Shown piece by piece: positions 41,785 to 48,872 of a stretch of DNA of 64,000 bases (within the stretch, counting starts at the first letter, position 1; each line of letters starts with the position of its first letter). The DNA is from Sphaerotilus uruguayifluvii. GTDB lineage: Bacteria > Pseudomonadota > Gammaproteobacteria > Burkholderiales > Burkholderiaceae_C. Where the stretch lies: the NCBI RefSeq assembly GCF_013294065.1, contig NZ_JABSNM010000009.1, forward strand, positions 1 through 64,000, written 5' to 3'. A program made the translations under genes and the position numbers. The notes below the pieces were generated by a model that saw nothing but the letters and a program-made list of their open reading frames with translations, did not search any database and was not told where the DNA came from.

Positions 41785-43338
41785 ATGAGTGACACCGCCG
41801 CCTGTTCGCCGACTTCGCTGGACCCTGCCGATCCGGCCGCCTGGGAAGACTTTCGCGCCCAGGCCCACCGCATGCTCGACGACATGATCGGCCACCTGCG
41901 CACGCTGCGCGAGCAGCCGGTCTGGCGGCCGATCCCCGAGGCGCTGCGCGCGGGCTGGCGCGAGCCCCTGCCGGCGCAGCCGGTGCCGGTGGCCGAGCTG
42001 CACCGGCGCTTCCTGGCCGAGGTGCTGCCGCATGCGGTCGGCAACGCGCATCCGCGCTTCATGGGCTGGGTGCAGGGCGCCGGCACGCCCGAGGGCCTGC
42101 TGGCCGAGATGCTCGCCGCCGGCCTGAACGCCAACGTGGGCGGGCGCGACCAGATGCCGCTGGAGGTCGAGCGCCAGGTGGTGCACTGGATGCGCGAGCT
42201 GTTCGACTTTCCCGACACCGCCTCCGGCCTGCTGGTGACCGGCTCCTCGACCGCCAACCTGATCGGCGTGCTGGTGGCGCGCACCCGCGCGCTGGGCGTC
42301 GACTCGCGCCGCGACGGGCTGGGCGCGGACGGCCTGAGGCTGGTGGCCTACACCAGCGCGGCCGCGCACGGCTGCGTCGCGCAGGCGATGGCGATCGCCG
42401 GGCTGGGCCACCAGGCGCTGCGCCGGGTGCCGGTGGACGCCGATCACCGCATCGACGTCGCCGCGCTGCGCCGCATGCTGGCGGCGGACCGCGCTGCCGG
42501 CCTGCAGCCCTTCCTGGTGGTGGGCACCGCCGGCACGGTCGATGTCGGCGCGATCGACGATCTGGACGCGCTGGCCACGCTGTGCGCGACCGAGCAGCTC
42601 TGGTTCCATGTCGACGGCGCCTTCGGCGCGCTGGCGCGGCTGTCGCCGGCGCTGGCGCCGCGCCTGGCCGGCATCGAGCGGGCCGACTCGCTGGCGCTGG
42701 ACTTCCACAAGTGGGGCCAGGTGCCCTACGACGCCGGCTTCGTGCTGGTGCGCGATCAGGCCGCGCAGCTGGCGGCCTTCGCCTCGCCGGCGGCCTATCT
42801 GGCGCGCCACCCGCGCGGGCTGGCGGCGGGCTCGCCCTGGCCCTGCGATCTCGGCCCCGACCTCTCGCGGGGCTTCCGGGCGCTGAAGGTCTGGTTCACC
42901 GTCATGGCCCACGGCCGCGAGCGCCTGGGCGCGGCGATCGAGGCCAGCTGCCGCCTGGCGCGTCGGCTGGCCGAGCGGGTCGATGCCGACGCGCGGCTGC
43001 AGCGGCTCGCGCCGGTGGCGCTGAACATCGTCTGCCTGCGCTATGTCGGCGCGGCGCCGGACCTGGCCGACGGCCAGCCGCTCGACGAGGCCACGCTCGA
43101 CGCGCTCAACGCCGAGCTGGTCGCCGACCTGCACGAGAGCGGCGTGGCCGCGCCGTCCACCACCACGATCGGCGGGCGCACCGCGGTGCGCGTCGCGCTG
43201 GTCAACCACCGCACCGTCGAGGCCGACCTCGACCTGCTGCTCGAGGCCCTGCATCACTTCGGACGACTGCGCCTGCGGCAGGCGTGCGCCGGCGGTGCGG
43301 CGGGCCTGCCGATCCTTTCCGACGAAAGCTCCCGATGA
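41785..43338 (+). CDS. Group II PLP-dependent decarboxylase
   Basis: A 517-residue fold-type-I enzyme of the aromatic-amino-acid/glutamate/diaminobutyrate decarboxylase group. Seen: HPRFMGWVQGAG (residues 89-100), TGSSTANL (152-159) for PLP phosphate, His195 that stacks on the ring, Asp277 (HVDGAF) and the Schiff-base Lys309 in LDFHKWGQ. The normal reaction would be removal of CO2 from an L-amino acid to give an amine. The substrate cannot be read. The gene is first in a three-gene operon: its stop overlaps the next ATG. There is no clear Shine-Dalgarno sequence before the ATG. Confidence 0.88.
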   Translation: MSDTAACSPTSLDPADPAAWEDFRAQAHRMLDDMIGHLRTLREQPVWRPIPEALRAGWREPLPAQPVPVAELHRRFLAEVLPHAVGNAHPRFMGWVQGAGTPEGLLAEMLAAGLNANVGGRDQMPLEVERQVVHWMRELFDFPDTASGLLVTGSSTANLIGVLVARTRALGVDSRRDGLGADGLRLVAYTSAAAHGCVAQAMAIAGLGHQALRRVPVDADHRIDVAALRRMLAADRAAGLQPFLVVGTAGTVDVGAIDDLDALATLCATEQLWFHVDGAFGALARLSPALAPRLAGIERADSLALDFHKWGQVPYDAGFVLVRDQAAQLAAFASPAAYLARHPRGLAAGSPWPCDLGPDLSRGFRALKVWFTVMAHGRERLGAAIEASCRLARRLAERVDADARLQRLAPVALNIVCLRYVGAAPDLADGQPLDEATLDALNAELVADLHESGVAAPSTTTIGGRTAVRVALVNHRTVEADLDLLLEALHHFGRLRLRQACAGGAAGLPILSDESSR

Positions 43339-44564
43339 CCGTGACCGCTTCCCCGATCGCCCCCCGCAAGCCGCTGCTGGGCCTGGCGACGCTGATGACC
43401 CAGGCCTTTCGCGGCACCGACCTGCGCCCGCTGGCGCAGTCCTTCATCGAGCGCGCCGGCGCCGACGAGCACGACGCCGAGGCACTGATGGACCTGTCCA
43501 CCGCGCTGTTCCTGCAGGGCCTGCGCGAGGTCGGCCTGGCGACGCAGGCGCAGGCGCTGCAGGTCAGCCGCCTGTACCGGCTCGAGGCGCCGTGCCCGCC
43601 GGCCGAGGGCCGGCCGCTGCGGCTGCTGGCGCTGATGATGCCCGGCGACCTGATGACGAATGCGCCGCTGCCCTTCCTGTGCGAGGGCAGCGACGTCGAG
43701 CTGACGATGCTCTACCTGGTGCCGGGCGAGCCGCTGCCCGAGACGCTGCCGGCGCATGACGTGCTGTGGACGGCGGTGTCGGAGTCGGCCGCCAGCCGCA
43801 CGCTGCTGTCGCGCCTCGACGCGCAGATGGCGCGCTGGGGCGTGCAGCCGGTCAACCGGCCCGCCGCCATCCTGCGTACCTCGCGCGACGAGGCCTGGCA
43901 GATGCTGCACGGCCTGCCGGGCCTGGCGATGCCGGCCACCGCGCTGCACGAGCGCGGCGTGCTGCAGGAGCTGGCCGAGGGCCTGCGGCCGCTGGGCACG
44001 CTGCTGCCCGACGCCGCCTGGCCGCTGATCATCCGCCCGCTCGACTCGCACGCCGGCCACGACCTGGAGAAGGTCGACACGCCGGCGGCGCTGGCGGCCT
44101 ACCTCGAGGCGACCGCCGGCGAGGTCTTCTACCTGTCGAGCTTCGTCGACTACCGCGGCGCCGACGGCCAGTTCCGCAAGTACCGCGTCGTGCTGGTCGA
44201 CGGCCAGGCCTTCGCCGGCCACCTGGGCGTGTCCTCGCACTGGATGGTGCACTACCTCAATGCCGGCATGACCGACAGCGAGGACAAGCGCCGCCAGGAG
44301 GCCGAGTTCATGACCGGCTTCGACGCCGGCTTCGGCGCGCGCCATGCCGAGGCGCTGGGCCGGATCGGCGCGGGCTTCGGTCTGGACTATCTGGTGATCG
44401 ACTGCGCCGAGACGAGCGACGGCCGGCTGCTGGTCTTCGAGGTCGATCCGGGCGCGGTCGTGCACTCGATGGATCCGGAGGAGATGTTCCCGTACAAGCA
44501 CCCGGCGATGCGTCGCGTGCGGCAGGCCTTCCGGGGCCTGCTGGCGCGGCGGGCCGCGCGATGA
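43335..44564 (+). CDS. ATP-grasp-like protein
   Basis: A 409-residue protein. Residues ~1-85 are helical and resemble a TPR-like cap. Residues ~95-200 look like a Rossmann-type pre-ATP domain (LRLLALMMPGDLM, DVLWTAVSES). From ~205 an ATP-grasp fold is suggested by LIIRPLDSHAGHDLEKV (231-247), the hydrophobic EVFYLSSFVDY hinge and the metal acids Asp356, Glu369 and Asp371 (LVFEVDPG). Such enzymes join a carboxylate to an amine through an acyl phosphate. I do not know this member's product. It overlaps both neighbours by 4 nt; a decarboxylase-made amine would be a sensible acceptor (inference). Confidence 0.75.
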   Translation: MTVTASPIAPRKPLLGLATLMTQAFRGTDLRPLAQSFIERAGADEHDAEALMDLSTALFLQGLREVGLATQAQALQVSRLYRLEAPCPPAEGRPLRLLALMMPGDLMTNAPLPFLCEGSDVELTMLYLVPGEPLPETLPAHDVLWTAVSESAASRTLLSRLDAQMARWGVQPVNRPAAILRTSRDEAWQMLHGLPGLAMPATALHERGVLQELAEGLRPLGTLLPDAAWPLIIRPLDSHAGHDLEKVDTPAALAAYLEATAGEVFYLSSFVDYRGADGQFRKYRVVLVDGQAFAGHLGVSSHWMVHYLNAGMTDSEDKRRQEAEFMTGFDAGFGARHAEALGRIGAGFGLDYLVIDCAETSDGRLLVFEVDPGAVVHSMDPEEMFPYKHPAMRRVRQAFRGLLARRAAR

Positions 44565-46186
44565 CGGCGGCGACCGAGCGCCGCGTCTCGTCCATCGTCC
44601 TGCGCACGCTGCTGTCCGCGTCCTCCCCCCCCGCCATGGCCACCGCCTCCACGCTGATCGACGATCCCGAGCTGGCCGACGCGACCGCCTACTGGCTGAC
44701 GCAGGGCGGGGACACGCGGCTGCAGCTCGACGTGCAGGGCACGAATCTCTACGGCTGCCCGCCCCGGCCCGATCCGGGACTGATCGCGCTGGGCTCGTCG
44801 ACCGCGTCGGTGGTGTCGGCGCGCGGCTTCGAGGCGGCCTCGCGGCTGATGCTGCGCCTGGGCGCCGATCCGGGCTGCTGGCCCGGCGAGGTCGACCGGG
44901 TGCGCGCCGAGCTGCTGGCGCTGACCGGCGCCGACCAGGTCACCGGCACGCAGGTGGTGCTGGCGGCTTCCGGCACCGACCTGCATCTGATCGCGACCCA
45001 GATCCTCAGCCCGGCCGACGGCGAGCCGGGCGCGGCCCGGCCGCTGCAGGCCTTGATGGCCGATCCGTCCGAGACCGGCAGCGGCGTGCCCAAGGCGCTG
45101 GCGGCCCGCCACTTCAACACCGTCACCGCGCAGGGCGCCCAGGTCGCGCCCGGCCTGTCCCTGCCCGGGCTCGAGATGGCGCCGGCGCGCACCGTGGCGC
45201 TGCGCGAGCCCGACGGCCGGCCGCGCCCGGTCGAGGCGATCGACGCGGAGTTCGCCGCCGAGGCCGAGCGCATCGTGCGCGCCGGCGGGCGTTGCCTGCT
45301 GGTGATGGTCGACGTGTCGAAGACCGGCCTGGTCGCGCCGTCGCCGGCCTGCGCGCTGCGCCTGCGCCACCGCTGGGGCGAGCAGGTCGAGGTGCTGGTC
45401 GATGCCTGCCAGTTCCGGCTGGCGCCGGAATCGGTGGCGGCCTTCCTGCGCCAGGATTTCCTGGTGGCGCTGACCGGCTCGAAGTTCGTCGGCGGACCGG
45501 CCTTCAGCGGCGCGCTGCTGCTGCCGCCGGCGGCGGCCGCGCGGGTGCGCCGCCGGCCGCTGCACCGGCTGCGCTCCTACAGCGCGCGCGGCGACTGGCC
45601 GCGTTCCTGGCCGGGCGCGCGCGAGCTGCCGGGCAGCCCGAACCCGGGCCTGCTGCTGCGCTGGGAGGCGGCGCTGGCCGAGCTGCGCCGGCTGCGCGAG
45701 GTGCCGGCGGCGGCGGTGCAGGACTTCCTGCGCGAATGGGGCGCCGCGGCCTCGGCGCGGCTGACCGACGATCCGGTCTTCGAGCCGCTGCCGGTCACGC
45801 CGCTGGCGCAGTCGCGCGACTGGCGCGTCGCCAGCGCCGGGCCGGCCTGCTGGGACCGGCTGCCGACGATCCTTCCCTTCCTGCCGCGCCGGCGCGAGGG
45901 CCGCACCTGGCGGCCCCTGCGCCCGGAGGAGACGGCCTGGCTGCACCGCCAGATGCGCGAGGCGCAGGCCGGCGACGGCGTGCCGCTGCTGGCGCAGCTG
46001 CGCTTCCAGATCGGCCAGCCGGTGGTCTGCGGCGTGCGCGATGGCCAGGCGCTGACGGCGCTGCGCCTGTGCGTGGGCGCACGCGACATCTCGGCGGCGA
46101 CCTCCGGCGCCCGCGGCCCGGCCGAGGCGCTGACGCAGGCGCGGCTGGCGCTGGACAAGCTCGCCTGGCTGATCGGCCGGATCTGA
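44561..46186 (+). CDS. Divergent fold-type-I PLP-dependent protein
   Basis: A 541-residue protein I cannot place in a named family. It shows the fold-type-I pattern in order: AASGTD (residues 135-140) as PLP-phosphate loop, Asp281 in VDACQFR, where Gln284 takes the position that is often His or Arg, and Lys308 in LTGSKFVGGP as the likely Schiff-base lysine. The ~200 residues after this contain SARGDWPRSWPG and many Trp/Arg/Pro residues, unlike usual aminotransferase tails. The ATG overlaps the ATP-grasp stop. Its place in the operon suggests a step on the same small molecule; lyase, aminotransferase and desulfurase chemistry are all possible. Confidence 0.7.
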   Translation: MTAATERRVSSIVLRTLLSASSPPAMATASTLIDDPELADATAYWLTQGGDTRLQLDVQGTNLYGCPPRPDPGLIALGSSTASVVSARGFEAASRLMLRLGADPGCWPGEVDRVRAELLALTGADQVTGTQVVLAASGTDLHLIATQILSPADGEPGAARPLQALMADPSETGSGVPKALAARHFNTVTAQGAQVAPGLSLPGLEMAPARTVALREPDGRPRPVEAIDAEFAAEAERIVRAGGRCLLVMVDVSKTGLVAPSPACALRLRHRWGEQVEVLVDACQFRLAPESVAAFLRQDFLVALTGSKFVGGPAFSGALLLPPAAAARVRRRPLHRLRSYSARGDWPRSWPGARELPGSPNPGLLLRWEAALAELRRLREVPAAAVQDFLREWGAAASARLTDDPVFEPLPVTPLAQSRDWRVASAGPACWDRLPTILPFLPRRREGRTWRPLRPEETAWLHRQMREAQAGDGVPLLAQLRFQIGQPVVCGVRDGQALTALRLCVGARDISAATSGARGPAEALTQARLALDKLAWLIGRI

Positions 46187-46298: not shown

Positions 46299-48872
46299 AT
46301 GTCCGACCTGTCCCAGTTTCCGCCGAATCCTGCCGCCGGCGCTGCCGAGGTGCAGCGCACGCTGGCGCCCGCGCCGCGTGGCCGCCGCAGCGCGGCCGCT
46401 CCCTTCGCGTGGCCGATGCCGCCCTTCGCGTCCTACCCGCCGGCCGAGCCGCAGCGCGAGCCGCTGGCCGTCGAGATCGAGGGGCGCAGCGGCAACCTGA
46501 TGAGCGGCCAGCTGGTCGCGCTGGAGCCGGCCGCCGGCATCGCGCGGGTGCAGGTGCCGCCGGACCGGGTGTCGCTGCCGATGCGCTTCGACCAGATCCG
46601 GCGCATCACGCTGCAGGCGCCGATCCTGCCGCTGTCGCGCCGCGAGGGCCTGCCGGCGCCGGCCGAGCCGCTGAGCGAGGCGCAGGCGCAGGTGCTCGAG
46701 CACCATCCGGCCCAGCCCTTCACCGTGCACCTGGCCGGGGGCGAGAGCTTCGGCGGCGTCACCGTCGGCCATGTCGAGAACGAGGTCGGGCTGTTCCTGT
46801 TCATGCCGCTGGACGACCGCGGCGCGGTGCAGTGCAGCCTGCTGCCCCGCGGGGCCTACGAGCGCGCGGCCCTGGGCGAGCGGCTGGGCGCCCTGCTGGT
46901 CGAGGAGGCCGCGGTCACGCCGGCGCAGGTCGAGCAGGCGATGCAGATCCAGAAGCGCTCGCGCGGGCAGAAGCTCGGCGAGATCCTGGTGGCGCGCCAG
47001 ATCGTCACGCCCGACCAGCTGCTGGCCGCGCTCGACAAGCAGGCGCGCATGCCGATGGTGCGCCTGGGCGAGGCGCTGGTGGCGCTGGGCTATCTGCGCG
47101 AGGAGCAGCTCCACGAGGTGCTCGGCCAGCAGGTCAGCGAGCGGGTGCAGCCGCTCGGCGAGGTGCTGCTCGAGCGCGACTGGGTCACGCCGCAGCAGCT
47201 GCGGGTGGCGATGGCGCGCAAGATGGGCTATCCGGTCGTCAACCTGACGAATTTCCATCCGCAGAACGAGGCGCTGGCGCGGCTGCCGCTGGAGACGGCG
47301 CGGCTGCTGGAGGTGCTGCCGCTGGTACACCGCGCCGGCCGGCTGGTGGTGGCGATGCAGGACGTGTCGCGCCAGGCGGTGCTCGAGCAGCTCGCCGAGC
47401 TCAGCGGCTGCGCGATCGCGCCGGCGCTGACCGGCGCGGGCGACCTGAAGGCGGCGATCGAGCGCGCCTACGCCGACCTGCCGGTGCCGGTCGATCCGGA
47501 GGCCGCCGGCGTGCCGTCCGCCGCACCGGCGGCCTCCGCGGCCAGCGCCGGCGCCGCCGGTCCGGCCGCGCCCGAGGCGGCCGCCGGGCCGGCCCGCGAG
47601 GGCGAGGGCGGTGCGCGCGCCGGCCGCGACCATCCGGTGCAGCAGCTGCTGGTCACGCTGGTGGCCGACGCGATGGGCAAGGGCGCCAGCGCCATCCACA
47701 TCGAGAACCACCCGAGCGAGGACAAGCTGTGGGTGCGGCTGCGCCGCGACGGCCGCATGGAGCCGCACACCGAGCTGCCCGGGCGCTGGCGCACCGGGCT
47801 GGTGGCGCGCATCAAGTCGCTGGCCGAGCTCGACGTGGCCGACAACCGCCGGCCGCAGTCGGGCCGGCTGGCCTTCGCGCGGCTGATGCCGCAGCACCGC
47901 ATCGAGCTGCGCGTCACCACGCTGCCGACGCATGGCGGCATGGAGGACATCGTGCTGGGCCTGCCGACGCGGCTCAAGGCGCTGAAGTTCGAGGGCCTGG
48001 GCCTGGGCGCATCCGAGCAGGAGCGGCTCGCGGCGCTGCTGGAGCGGCCCGGCGGCGGGCTGATCCTCGGTGTCGGTCCGGCACGTTCGGGGCGCACCAC
48101 CACGCTGCTGGCCGAGCTGAACCGGCTGAACCAGCCCGAGCGCAAGATCGTCGCGCTGGGCGAGCGCCTGGAGGCGACGCTGCCGGGCGTGCGCCAGATC
48201 GAGGTCGACGCCCGCGCCGGCCGGCCGATGGCCGCGGCGCTGCAGGCGGTGCTGCAGGCCGATGCCGACGTGATCGCCATCGACGGCCTGCGCGACGTCG
48301 ACACCGCGCAGCTCGCGCTCGAGGCGGCGGCCGCCGGCCGGCTGGTGCTGGCCACCACCACCGGGCGCAACACCGCCGAGGCGGTGCAGCGCCTGATCGA
48401 CCTGGGCGTGGACCGCTGGCTGCTGGGCGACACGCTGCAGGCGGTGCATGCGCAGCGCCTGATGCGCCGGCTGTGCAGCACCTGCCGGATGAGCCGTTCC
48501 GCGCGCGAGCCCGAGATCGCCGAATGGATCGAGGGCCATTTCCACGGCGGCCATGTCGAGGCGGCCGAAGAGGCGCGCGAGCAGCTGCGCGCCGACTGGC
48601 TGGCCCGCCATGGCCGCGACGGCAAGCTGCGTCGCTACCAGAGCGCCGGCTGCGAGCGCTGCCGCGGCACCGGGCTGCGCGGGCGCGCGGCCGCGCACGA
48701 GCTGATGTTCGTCAGCCGCGAGCTGCGCCGGATGATCCGCGCCGGTGCGCCGGCCTGGAACCTGCAGCGCCTGGCGCTGCAGGAAGGGCTGCGCACGCTG
48801 CGCCAGGATGCGGTCGAGAAGATGCTGGCCGGGCTGGTCAGCCTCGACGAGGTGCGCGGCGTCTGCGACTGA
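46299..48872 (+). CDS. GspE/MshEN-like protein with degenerate ATPase site
   Basis: An 857-residue protein. The N-terminal region (to ~185) is unique; residues ~190-330 hold tandem MshEN/T2SS-E N-domain units (LGEILVARQIVTPDQLLAAL, LGEALVALGYLREEQL, LGEVLLERDWVTPQQL), a fold that can bind cyclic di-GMP. An Ala/Gly-rich linker follows (~405-440), then a PilT/GspE-type ATPase domain (~445-857). Key residues are lost: the P-loop reads GPARSGRTTT with Arg599 in place of Lys, Walker B has Gly663 where Glu is expected, and the His box reads TTTGRN. The tetracysteine zinc site (CSTC, CERC) is kept. It is probably a regulator or scaffold, not a motor. Confidence 0.88.
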   Translation: MSDLSQFPPNPAAGAAEVQRTLAPAPRGRRSAAAPFAWPMPPFASYPPAEPQREPLAVEIEGRSGNLMSGQLVALEPAAGIARVQVPPDRVSLPMRFDQIRRITLQAPILPLSRREGLPAPAEPLSEAQAQVLEHHPAQPFTVHLAGGESFGGVTVGHVENEVGLFLFMPLDDRGAVQCSLLPRGAYERAALGERLGALLVEEAAVTPAQVEQAMQIQKRSRGQKLGEILVARQIVTPDQLLAALDKQARMPMVRLGEALVALGYLREEQLHEVLGQQVSERVQPLGEVLLERDWVTPQQLRVAMARKMGYPVVNLTNFHPQNEALARLPLETARLLEVLPLVHRAGRLVVAMQDVSRQAVLEQLAELSGCAIAPALTGAGDLKAAIERAYADLPVPVDPEAAGVPSAAPAASAASAGAAGPAAPEAAAGPAREGEGGARAGRDHPVQQLLVTLVADAMGKGASAIHIENHPSEDKLWVRLRRDGRMEPHTELPGRWRTGLVARIKSLAELDVADNRRPQSGRLAFARLMPQHRIELRVTTLPTHGGMEDIVLGLPTRLKALKFEGLGLGASEQERLAALLERPGGGLILGVGPARSGRTTTLLAELNRLNQPERKIVALGERLEATLPGVRQIEVDARAGRPMAAALQAVLQADADVIAIDGLRDVDTAQLALEAAAAGRLVLATTTGRNTAEAVQRLIDLGVDRWLLGDTLQAVHAQRLMRRLCSTCRMSRSAREPEIAEWIEGHFHGGHVEAAEEAREQLRADWLARHGRDGKLRRYQSAGCERCRGTGLRGRAAAHELMFVSRELRRMIRAGAPAWNLQRLALQEGLRTLRQDAVEKMLAGLVSLDEVRGVCD

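Follow-up and report, generated by a model that had tools for sequence, protein, structure and literature searches.

What does an operon that joins two pyridoxal phosphate (PLP) enzymes to an ATP-grasp ligase make, and what does its product serve? The question is raised by three genes, here called A, B and C, in a 64,000-nucleotide stretch of the genome of Sphaerotilus uruguayifluvii (contig NZ_JABSNM010000009.1, positions 1 to 64,000; hereafter the window, meaning this whole stretch), where they form one operon on the plus strand. A encodes a group II decarboxylase, B a protein with the predicted fold of RimK/LysX-type ligases, and C a PLP protein of predicted class V-like type whose family has no name. 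A sequence-only reading of the locus had expected the set to build a small metabolite containing an amine or amide. Comparison across genomes adds something which that reading did not foresee, as the A-B-C cassette is linked to flagellar gene clusters.

Flagellar linkage and conservation of the cassette

A search for relatives of C yielded 161 genome-contig stretches, and the 80 best of these were retained (the named loci). A second set came from 399 genomes sampled from the order to which the host belongs, 48 of them C-positive (the order sample), and the two sets of loci overlap in part. Genes at the fetched loci were called by a codon-score script, with approximate gene starts and gaps. Linkage was assessed at loci flanked by 8 kb of sequence or more, neighbour families being checked by Pfam, and compared with 40 spaced control windows of 17.5 kb from five C-positive genomes (three contigs covered whole and two over their first 1.4 and 0.9 million bases). 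Flagellar genes lay in the flanks of 28 of the 62 long-flank named loci versus 2 of the 40 control windows (Fisher test, 4.9e-6). Five of these 28 loci were counted through FlaG alone, some by weak matches (E down to 5e-6), and with the FlaG-only loci set aside the count became 23/62 (1.2e-4 against the control). At any flank length, 31 of all 80 named loci had flagellar neighbours. Within the order sample, flagellar genes were found at 13/39 long-flank loci (p = 0.0013 against the same control) and at 14/48 loci of any flank length; leaving out three loci whose nearby flagellin was known beforehand gave 10/36 (p = 0.007). These three had belonged to a first subset of 20 sampled loci (6/20 flagellar), which was replaced by all 48.

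The flagellar neighbours comprised flagellin, FliD, FliS, FlaG, FlgA/D/G/H/I/J, FliF, FliG, FliK, MotA and YcgR, and the site occupied by the cassette differed among loci: beside fliC/fliD/fliS, flaG, flgA with motAB, flgJ and flgI, or fliFGH. Sulfuricella sp. T08 and Methylobacter tundripaludum are examples of motile isolates in which the cassette lies close to flagellar genes. On a quick, midpoint-drawn tree of C, with short-flank loci lacking a flagellar match set aside and site labels assigned by hand, flagellar adjacency changed at least 12 times. An association was also seen at the genome level, where the flagellin domain PF00669, a model that also matches FlgL-like proteins, was detected in 273 of the 399 sampled genomes, namely in 47/48 C-positive versus 226/351 C-negative ones (p = 8e-8) and, counted by genus, in 19/19 C-positive versus 100/140 (p = 0.003). 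A set that modifies flagellin would be expected to lie near flagellar genes and to occur in the same genomes as they do; both were observed overall, though not for the window's own locus.

Several observations weigh against a flagellar role. No flagellar gene was found at 34 of the 62 long-flank named loci and at 26 of the 39 long-flank loci of the order sample, and the window locus is among those without a flagellar match in the flanks, its operon lying on contig C9 and the flagellin gene on contig C11 (a second PF00669 match of this genome, on contig C23, is apparently FlgL-like). G343, a C-positive genome in which A and B adjoin C, lacks both a PF00669 match and FlgI. In a promoter scan with the sigma-28 consensus, sigma-28-like sites were not enriched upstream of A (15/68 at a score of at least 9, versus 90/386 other upstream regions); a perfect match was present at L050 only, and the window scored 9 of 12. 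A site related to this consensus is quoted in excerpts of PMC3765264. In addition, the flagellin test ignores kinship above genus, and some of the cassette loci counted are related to one another. Finally, C is found without A or B in nonribosomal peptide synthetase (NRPS) operons of rhizobia.

The rhizobial relatives of C fall on 33 plasmid records. On pSMED03 of Sinorhizobium medicae (L189:1-16817), the C homologue overlaps the end of a large NRPS gene by 4 nucleotides, and genes for a SagB-type dehydrogenase and a phosphopantetheinyl transferase lie further on. On a Rhizobium leguminosarum plasmid, an insertion element interrupts the NRPS region, and the C homologue there overlaps an AMP-binding gene by 4 nucleotides. 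Neither of these two NRPS stretches showed A or B. C is thus also found in settings other than flagellar ones. A plasmid of Rhizobium tumorigenes carries the complete operon in the order B-C-A.

The sequence-only reading had treated the three genes as one set, a view that would weaken if their families seldom met in other genomes. All three were present together at 67 of the 80 named loci, in the order A-B-C at 65 and as A-C-B' at two, and in the order sample the full set was seen at 44 of the 48 loci with C. B was missing from two named loci (present in 78/80) and A from 13, which include L035, L041, L057, L062, L084, L085 and L094; five of the 13 begin at most 70 bases from the sequence end. 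Among C-positive genomes without an adjacent A, G183 has A on another contig and none was found in G165. Fused frames were observed for A-B (L032, L056, L065, L098), B-C (L038, L072) and A-C (L025/L068, L083). The A-B, B-C and one of the two A-C frames come from metagenome assemblies, where a lost stop codon is possible, and the A-C fusion of L025/L068, 1002 residues long, belongs to an isolate, Scleromatobacter humisilvae. A further fusion was noted at L018:6045-8399, where folD is joined in frame to A and followed by B; no C was found in the L018 genome.

Of 369 genomes searched class-wide, two had C, the window's own and one other; C is therefore rare outside the order. The named loci nonetheless include Methylococcales, alphaproteobacteria and one metagenome-assembled genome (MAG) of Fibrobacteria. 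In a Janthinobacterium MAG (L059:9996-14054), the cassette is followed on the same strand by an AMP-binding protein with a hexapeptide-repeat match (1352 residues). As to previous knowledge, the sequence-only reading had recognised no pathway for the set, and no already described one covering all three genes appeared among the literature matches listed. Likewise, no description of the A-B-C cassette was present among the listed open-access matches on ATP-grasp or PLP decarboxylase genes combined with flagella, operon or host, which were listings and not full texts.

The three proteins and their operon

The layout of the window operon is given in Table 1. Translations and coordinates bear out the three same-strand genes joined by 4-nucleotide overlaps that had been described from the sequence, together with the positions assigned to their key residues. 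The family assignments (group II decarboxylase, ATP-grasp-like protein and fold-type-I PLP protein) also held, with predicted folds now added for B and C. Three of the alignments left out fused and truncated members, those more than 90% identical and a few others by choice, and two further ones left out rows from outside the named-locus search.

Table 1. Position and features of the A-B-C operon in the window.
Feature	Coordinates	Strand	Details
Gene A, group II PLP-dependent decarboxylase	41785..43338	+	517 aa; PLP Lys309 in FHKW, Asp277, His195; Pfam PF00282
Gene B, RimK/LysX-type ATP-grasp ligase (predicted)	43335..44564	+	409 aa; predicted fold; candidate metal-site acids Asp356, Glu369, Asp371
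Gene C, fold-type-I class V-like PLP protein (predicted), unnamed family	44561..46186	+	541 aa; candidate PLP Lys308 (TGSKF), Asp281 (VDACQ)
ATGA overlap, A stop / B start	43335..43338	+	sequence
ATGA overlap, B stop / C start	44561..44564	+	sequence

Protein A is a group II PLP decarboxylase, matching PF00282 at 4.7e-58 (197.2 bits; cut-off 27), and its best solved relative is 4obu, the tryptophan decarboxylase of R. gnavus (6.5e-59). Enzymes of this group rely on a lysine that binds PLP, an aspartate and a stacking histidine; the corresponding K309, D277 and H195 were invariant in 50/50 aligned rows. A scored under every NCBIfam cut-off shown (DABA decarboxylase, 178/900 bits; PanP, 130.3/606.1; MfnA, 69.6/299.4), and its substrate is therefore not fixed by family.

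Window B alone has no Pfam match, although rimK_fam does pick up 33 of 54 relatives (best 6.4e-8, with E up to 0.01); against TIGR00768, the RimK alpha-L-glutamate ligase, it scored 16 bits versus a curated cut-off of 143.4. Its AlphaFold2 model, built from a 52-row alignment with a predicted local distance difference test score (pLDDT) of 94.4, aligned with RimK (5zct) over 266 residues in VIA-align (Z 19.9; root-mean-square deviation, rmsd, 3.8). The nine best structures were RimK, LysX and ArgX (Z 19.3-19.9), and the rest, including two more LysX entries, reached at most 17.2. D356, E369 and D371 were invariant in 54/54 aligned rows, so that the predicted model combines an ATP-grasp fold with conserved candidate metal-binding acids. 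B thus appears to share the fold of RimK/LysX/ArgX ligases, but it differs from them in extra N-terminal helices and in scores far below their curated cut-offs. These helices, four in number (residues 17-77), lie outside the part matched to RimK-type structures. A TPR_12 match was found in 7 of 52 aligned B rows, probably including two long TPR-bearing forms, and the N-terminal domain of window B would be a small, helical and TPR-like one. No ATP-grasp_4 was seen among the Pfam matches shown for B and its relatives.

In three genomes, B relatives without C are paired with a second SerC-type class V aminotransferase, each genome also having a normal SerC elsewhere. These pairs lie at L021:3565-5909, L022:8422-10721 and L023:3477-5567; the best match of all three SerC paralogues is PRK12462, above cut-off in L021 only. 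One such pair adjoins cheB and a fliQ-like gene scoring just under its cut-off.

Window C has no match in Pfam or NCBIfam. The gathering cut-off of Aminotran_5 (PF00266) was not reached, with no match for window C and 1/70 members at E 0.0085 (limit 0.05), and a PDB sequence search with C profiles returned no meaningful relative; fold comparison was therefore used. Structure prediction, which the sequence-only reading had proposed for this protein, gave an AlphaFold2 model (60-row alignment; pLDDT 90.3) of a fold-type-I class V PLP enzyme. The model aligned with the transaminase PhnW (9kka) over 348 residues (Z 24.8, rmsd 3.2), and with PhnW, AGXT and NifS in general at Z ~24 over ~350 residues (3.2-3.9 Å; template modelling score in Foldseek ~0.5). 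Lys308 and Asp281 were invariant in 70/70 rows and kept in eight rhizobial relatives. On the strength of the predicted fold and this lysine, C would be a class V-type PLP enzyme with Lys308 as the candidate PLP residue, most likely an aminotransferase. It resembles the class V aminotransferases and desulfurases (PhnW, AGXT, NifS/SufS, SerC) in predicted fold and in having the expected lysine and aspartate, and the SerC-type paralogues beside B relatives in genomes without C are a further likeness; however, it is only 9-18% identical to the structures listed.

The immediate neighbours of the window operon are, by Pfam and NCBIfam, an 8-oxoguanine deaminase and an MshE/PilB-like ATPase. This agrees with the earlier remark that no peptide precursor or transporter gene is adjacent, small unannotated peptides not having been sought. 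The ATPase gene is the next one downstream (46299-48872, directly 3' of the operon), encodes a secretion ATPase with a domain of cyclic di-GMP-binding-type motif, and is kept after the operon in L017, L028, L029, L030 and L031.

Proposed pathway and alternative explanations

The reading that we tentatively favour, as a plausible one, is that the three enzymes act in a single pathway that builds an amide and serves the flagellum. According to this scheme, C as a class V-type PLP enzyme would make or tailor an amino acid, which A would decarboxylate to a primary amine. RimK and LysX activate a carboxylate as an acyl phosphate; B may do the same with ATP and join the amine to the activated group, while its small TPR-like domain would dock the acceptor. 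The most likely acceptor would be flagellin, a different filament protein or an export protein, or else a group that ends up on such a protein. The proposal builds on the co-occurrence and order of the genes, the fused frames in all three pairings, the predicted folds, the conserved catalytic residues and the flagellar linkage, from which we infer in what order the enzymes act, what reaction C catalyses, and which substrates and acceptor are involved. The near-constant presence of B, the loci without A, the L018 genome without C and the SerC-type pairs fit a variant with an optional A step, in which the class V enzyme would make the amino acid, A would optionally decarboxylate it and B would make the amide. 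A bolder form of the proposal, rather unlikely as it stands, is that the amine from the PLP pair is joined by the RimK-like ligase directly to carboxylates or termini of flagellin, as a new flagellar modification spread across classes by horizontal transfer.

The expectation of the sequence-only reading, put in its general form, is that the product of the operon is a small free molecule with an amine or amide group, such as a signal, a metallophore or a protectant, with no special flagellar link. It is partly supported, in that the enzyme parts fit a pathway ending in an amide. The loci away from flagellar genes, the window among them, are consistent with a free metabolite, as are the C homologues overlapping NRPS and AMP-binding genes on rhizobial plasmids and the B-C-A operon of Rhizobium tumorigenes. 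However, the flagellar enrichment at differing sites and the flagellin match in nearly all C-positive genomes point elsewhere, and no transporter stands immediately beside the window operon. Given the link to flagellar clusters, a flagellar modification is therefore no less likely than a free metabolite, and we regard the latter as possible but somewhat unlikely.

An improbable alternative is that what the operon provides is an amide group on a sugar such as a nonulosonic acid, which separate glycosyltransferases then attach to flagellin. ATP-grasp genes do occur in the sfm flagellin modification operon of Shewanella and near the flagellar glycosylation genes of Clostridium difficile, according to the portions of PMC3765264 and PMC5207246 available. 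The window genome itself has, just after fliC and fliD, a TPR and glycosyltransferase family 41 gene (L187:9219-14269, contig C11), located between fliD and fliS, both of which were read by eye; this gene suggests O-linked glycosylation of the flagellin. Against a sugar route, no sugar-nucleotide family was seen among the recurrent neighbours, many of them unannotated, and the Pfam scans gave no sign in B or its relatives of the ATP-grasp type present in sfm.

A little less probable still is that flagellar clusters are convenient landing sites, the association reflecting hitch-hiking and shared ancestry. Related loci have the same neighbours, the quick tree places the C proteins of Methylococcales among those of betaproteobacteria, and the flagellin statistics take no account of phylogeny above genus. 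The repeated changes in adjacency, the several flagellar sites and the genome-level flagellin association weigh against this explanation. The methanofuran set consists of the decarboxylase MfnA, the ATP-grasp ligase MfnD and the aminotransferase MfnC, and a similar C1 cofactor pathway, with which the enzyme kinds, the names of some hosts as methane oxidisers and the folD fusion of L018 would agree, is highly improbable and was rejected as a general role, since the marker Fae is present in just 3/48 C-positive genomes, the window's among them, and A lies far below the MfnA cut-off.

Comparison with known systems

Flagellin modification is a field dominated by glycosylation, and if the cassette modifies flagellin, amide chemistry would be added to it. 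A function would then also be available for hypothetical proteins in Gallionella, Sideroxydans, Sulfuricella and Methylobacter. Although neither B nor C has a Pfam family, the three genes are found together time and again, fused frames exist for each pair of them, and in the sampled genomes their presence goes with that of flagella. The methanofuran pathway is alike in uniting the same three enzyme kinds in one pathway, but differs in the marker and score just given.

The closest analogue of the cassette would be the operon sfmABCDE of Shewanella oneidensis, whose last gene has an ATP-grasp domain, and where deletion of that gene shifts the mass of flagellin and reduces spreading in soft agar, as described in excerpts of PMC3765264. 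The analogy has its limits: the words decarboxylase, pyridoxal and aminotransferase are absent from the main text of that paper, and the thiamine pyrophosphate-type enzyme, reductase and methyltransferase of sfm that it describes in the part available have no counterpart in A, B or C. Moreover, the Sfm ligase is of the ATP-grasp_4 family, which B does not match in Pfam. What the two systems would share, judging from the same portion of the paper, is that each is small, bears an ATP-grasp protein and is connected with the flagellum (PMC3765264).

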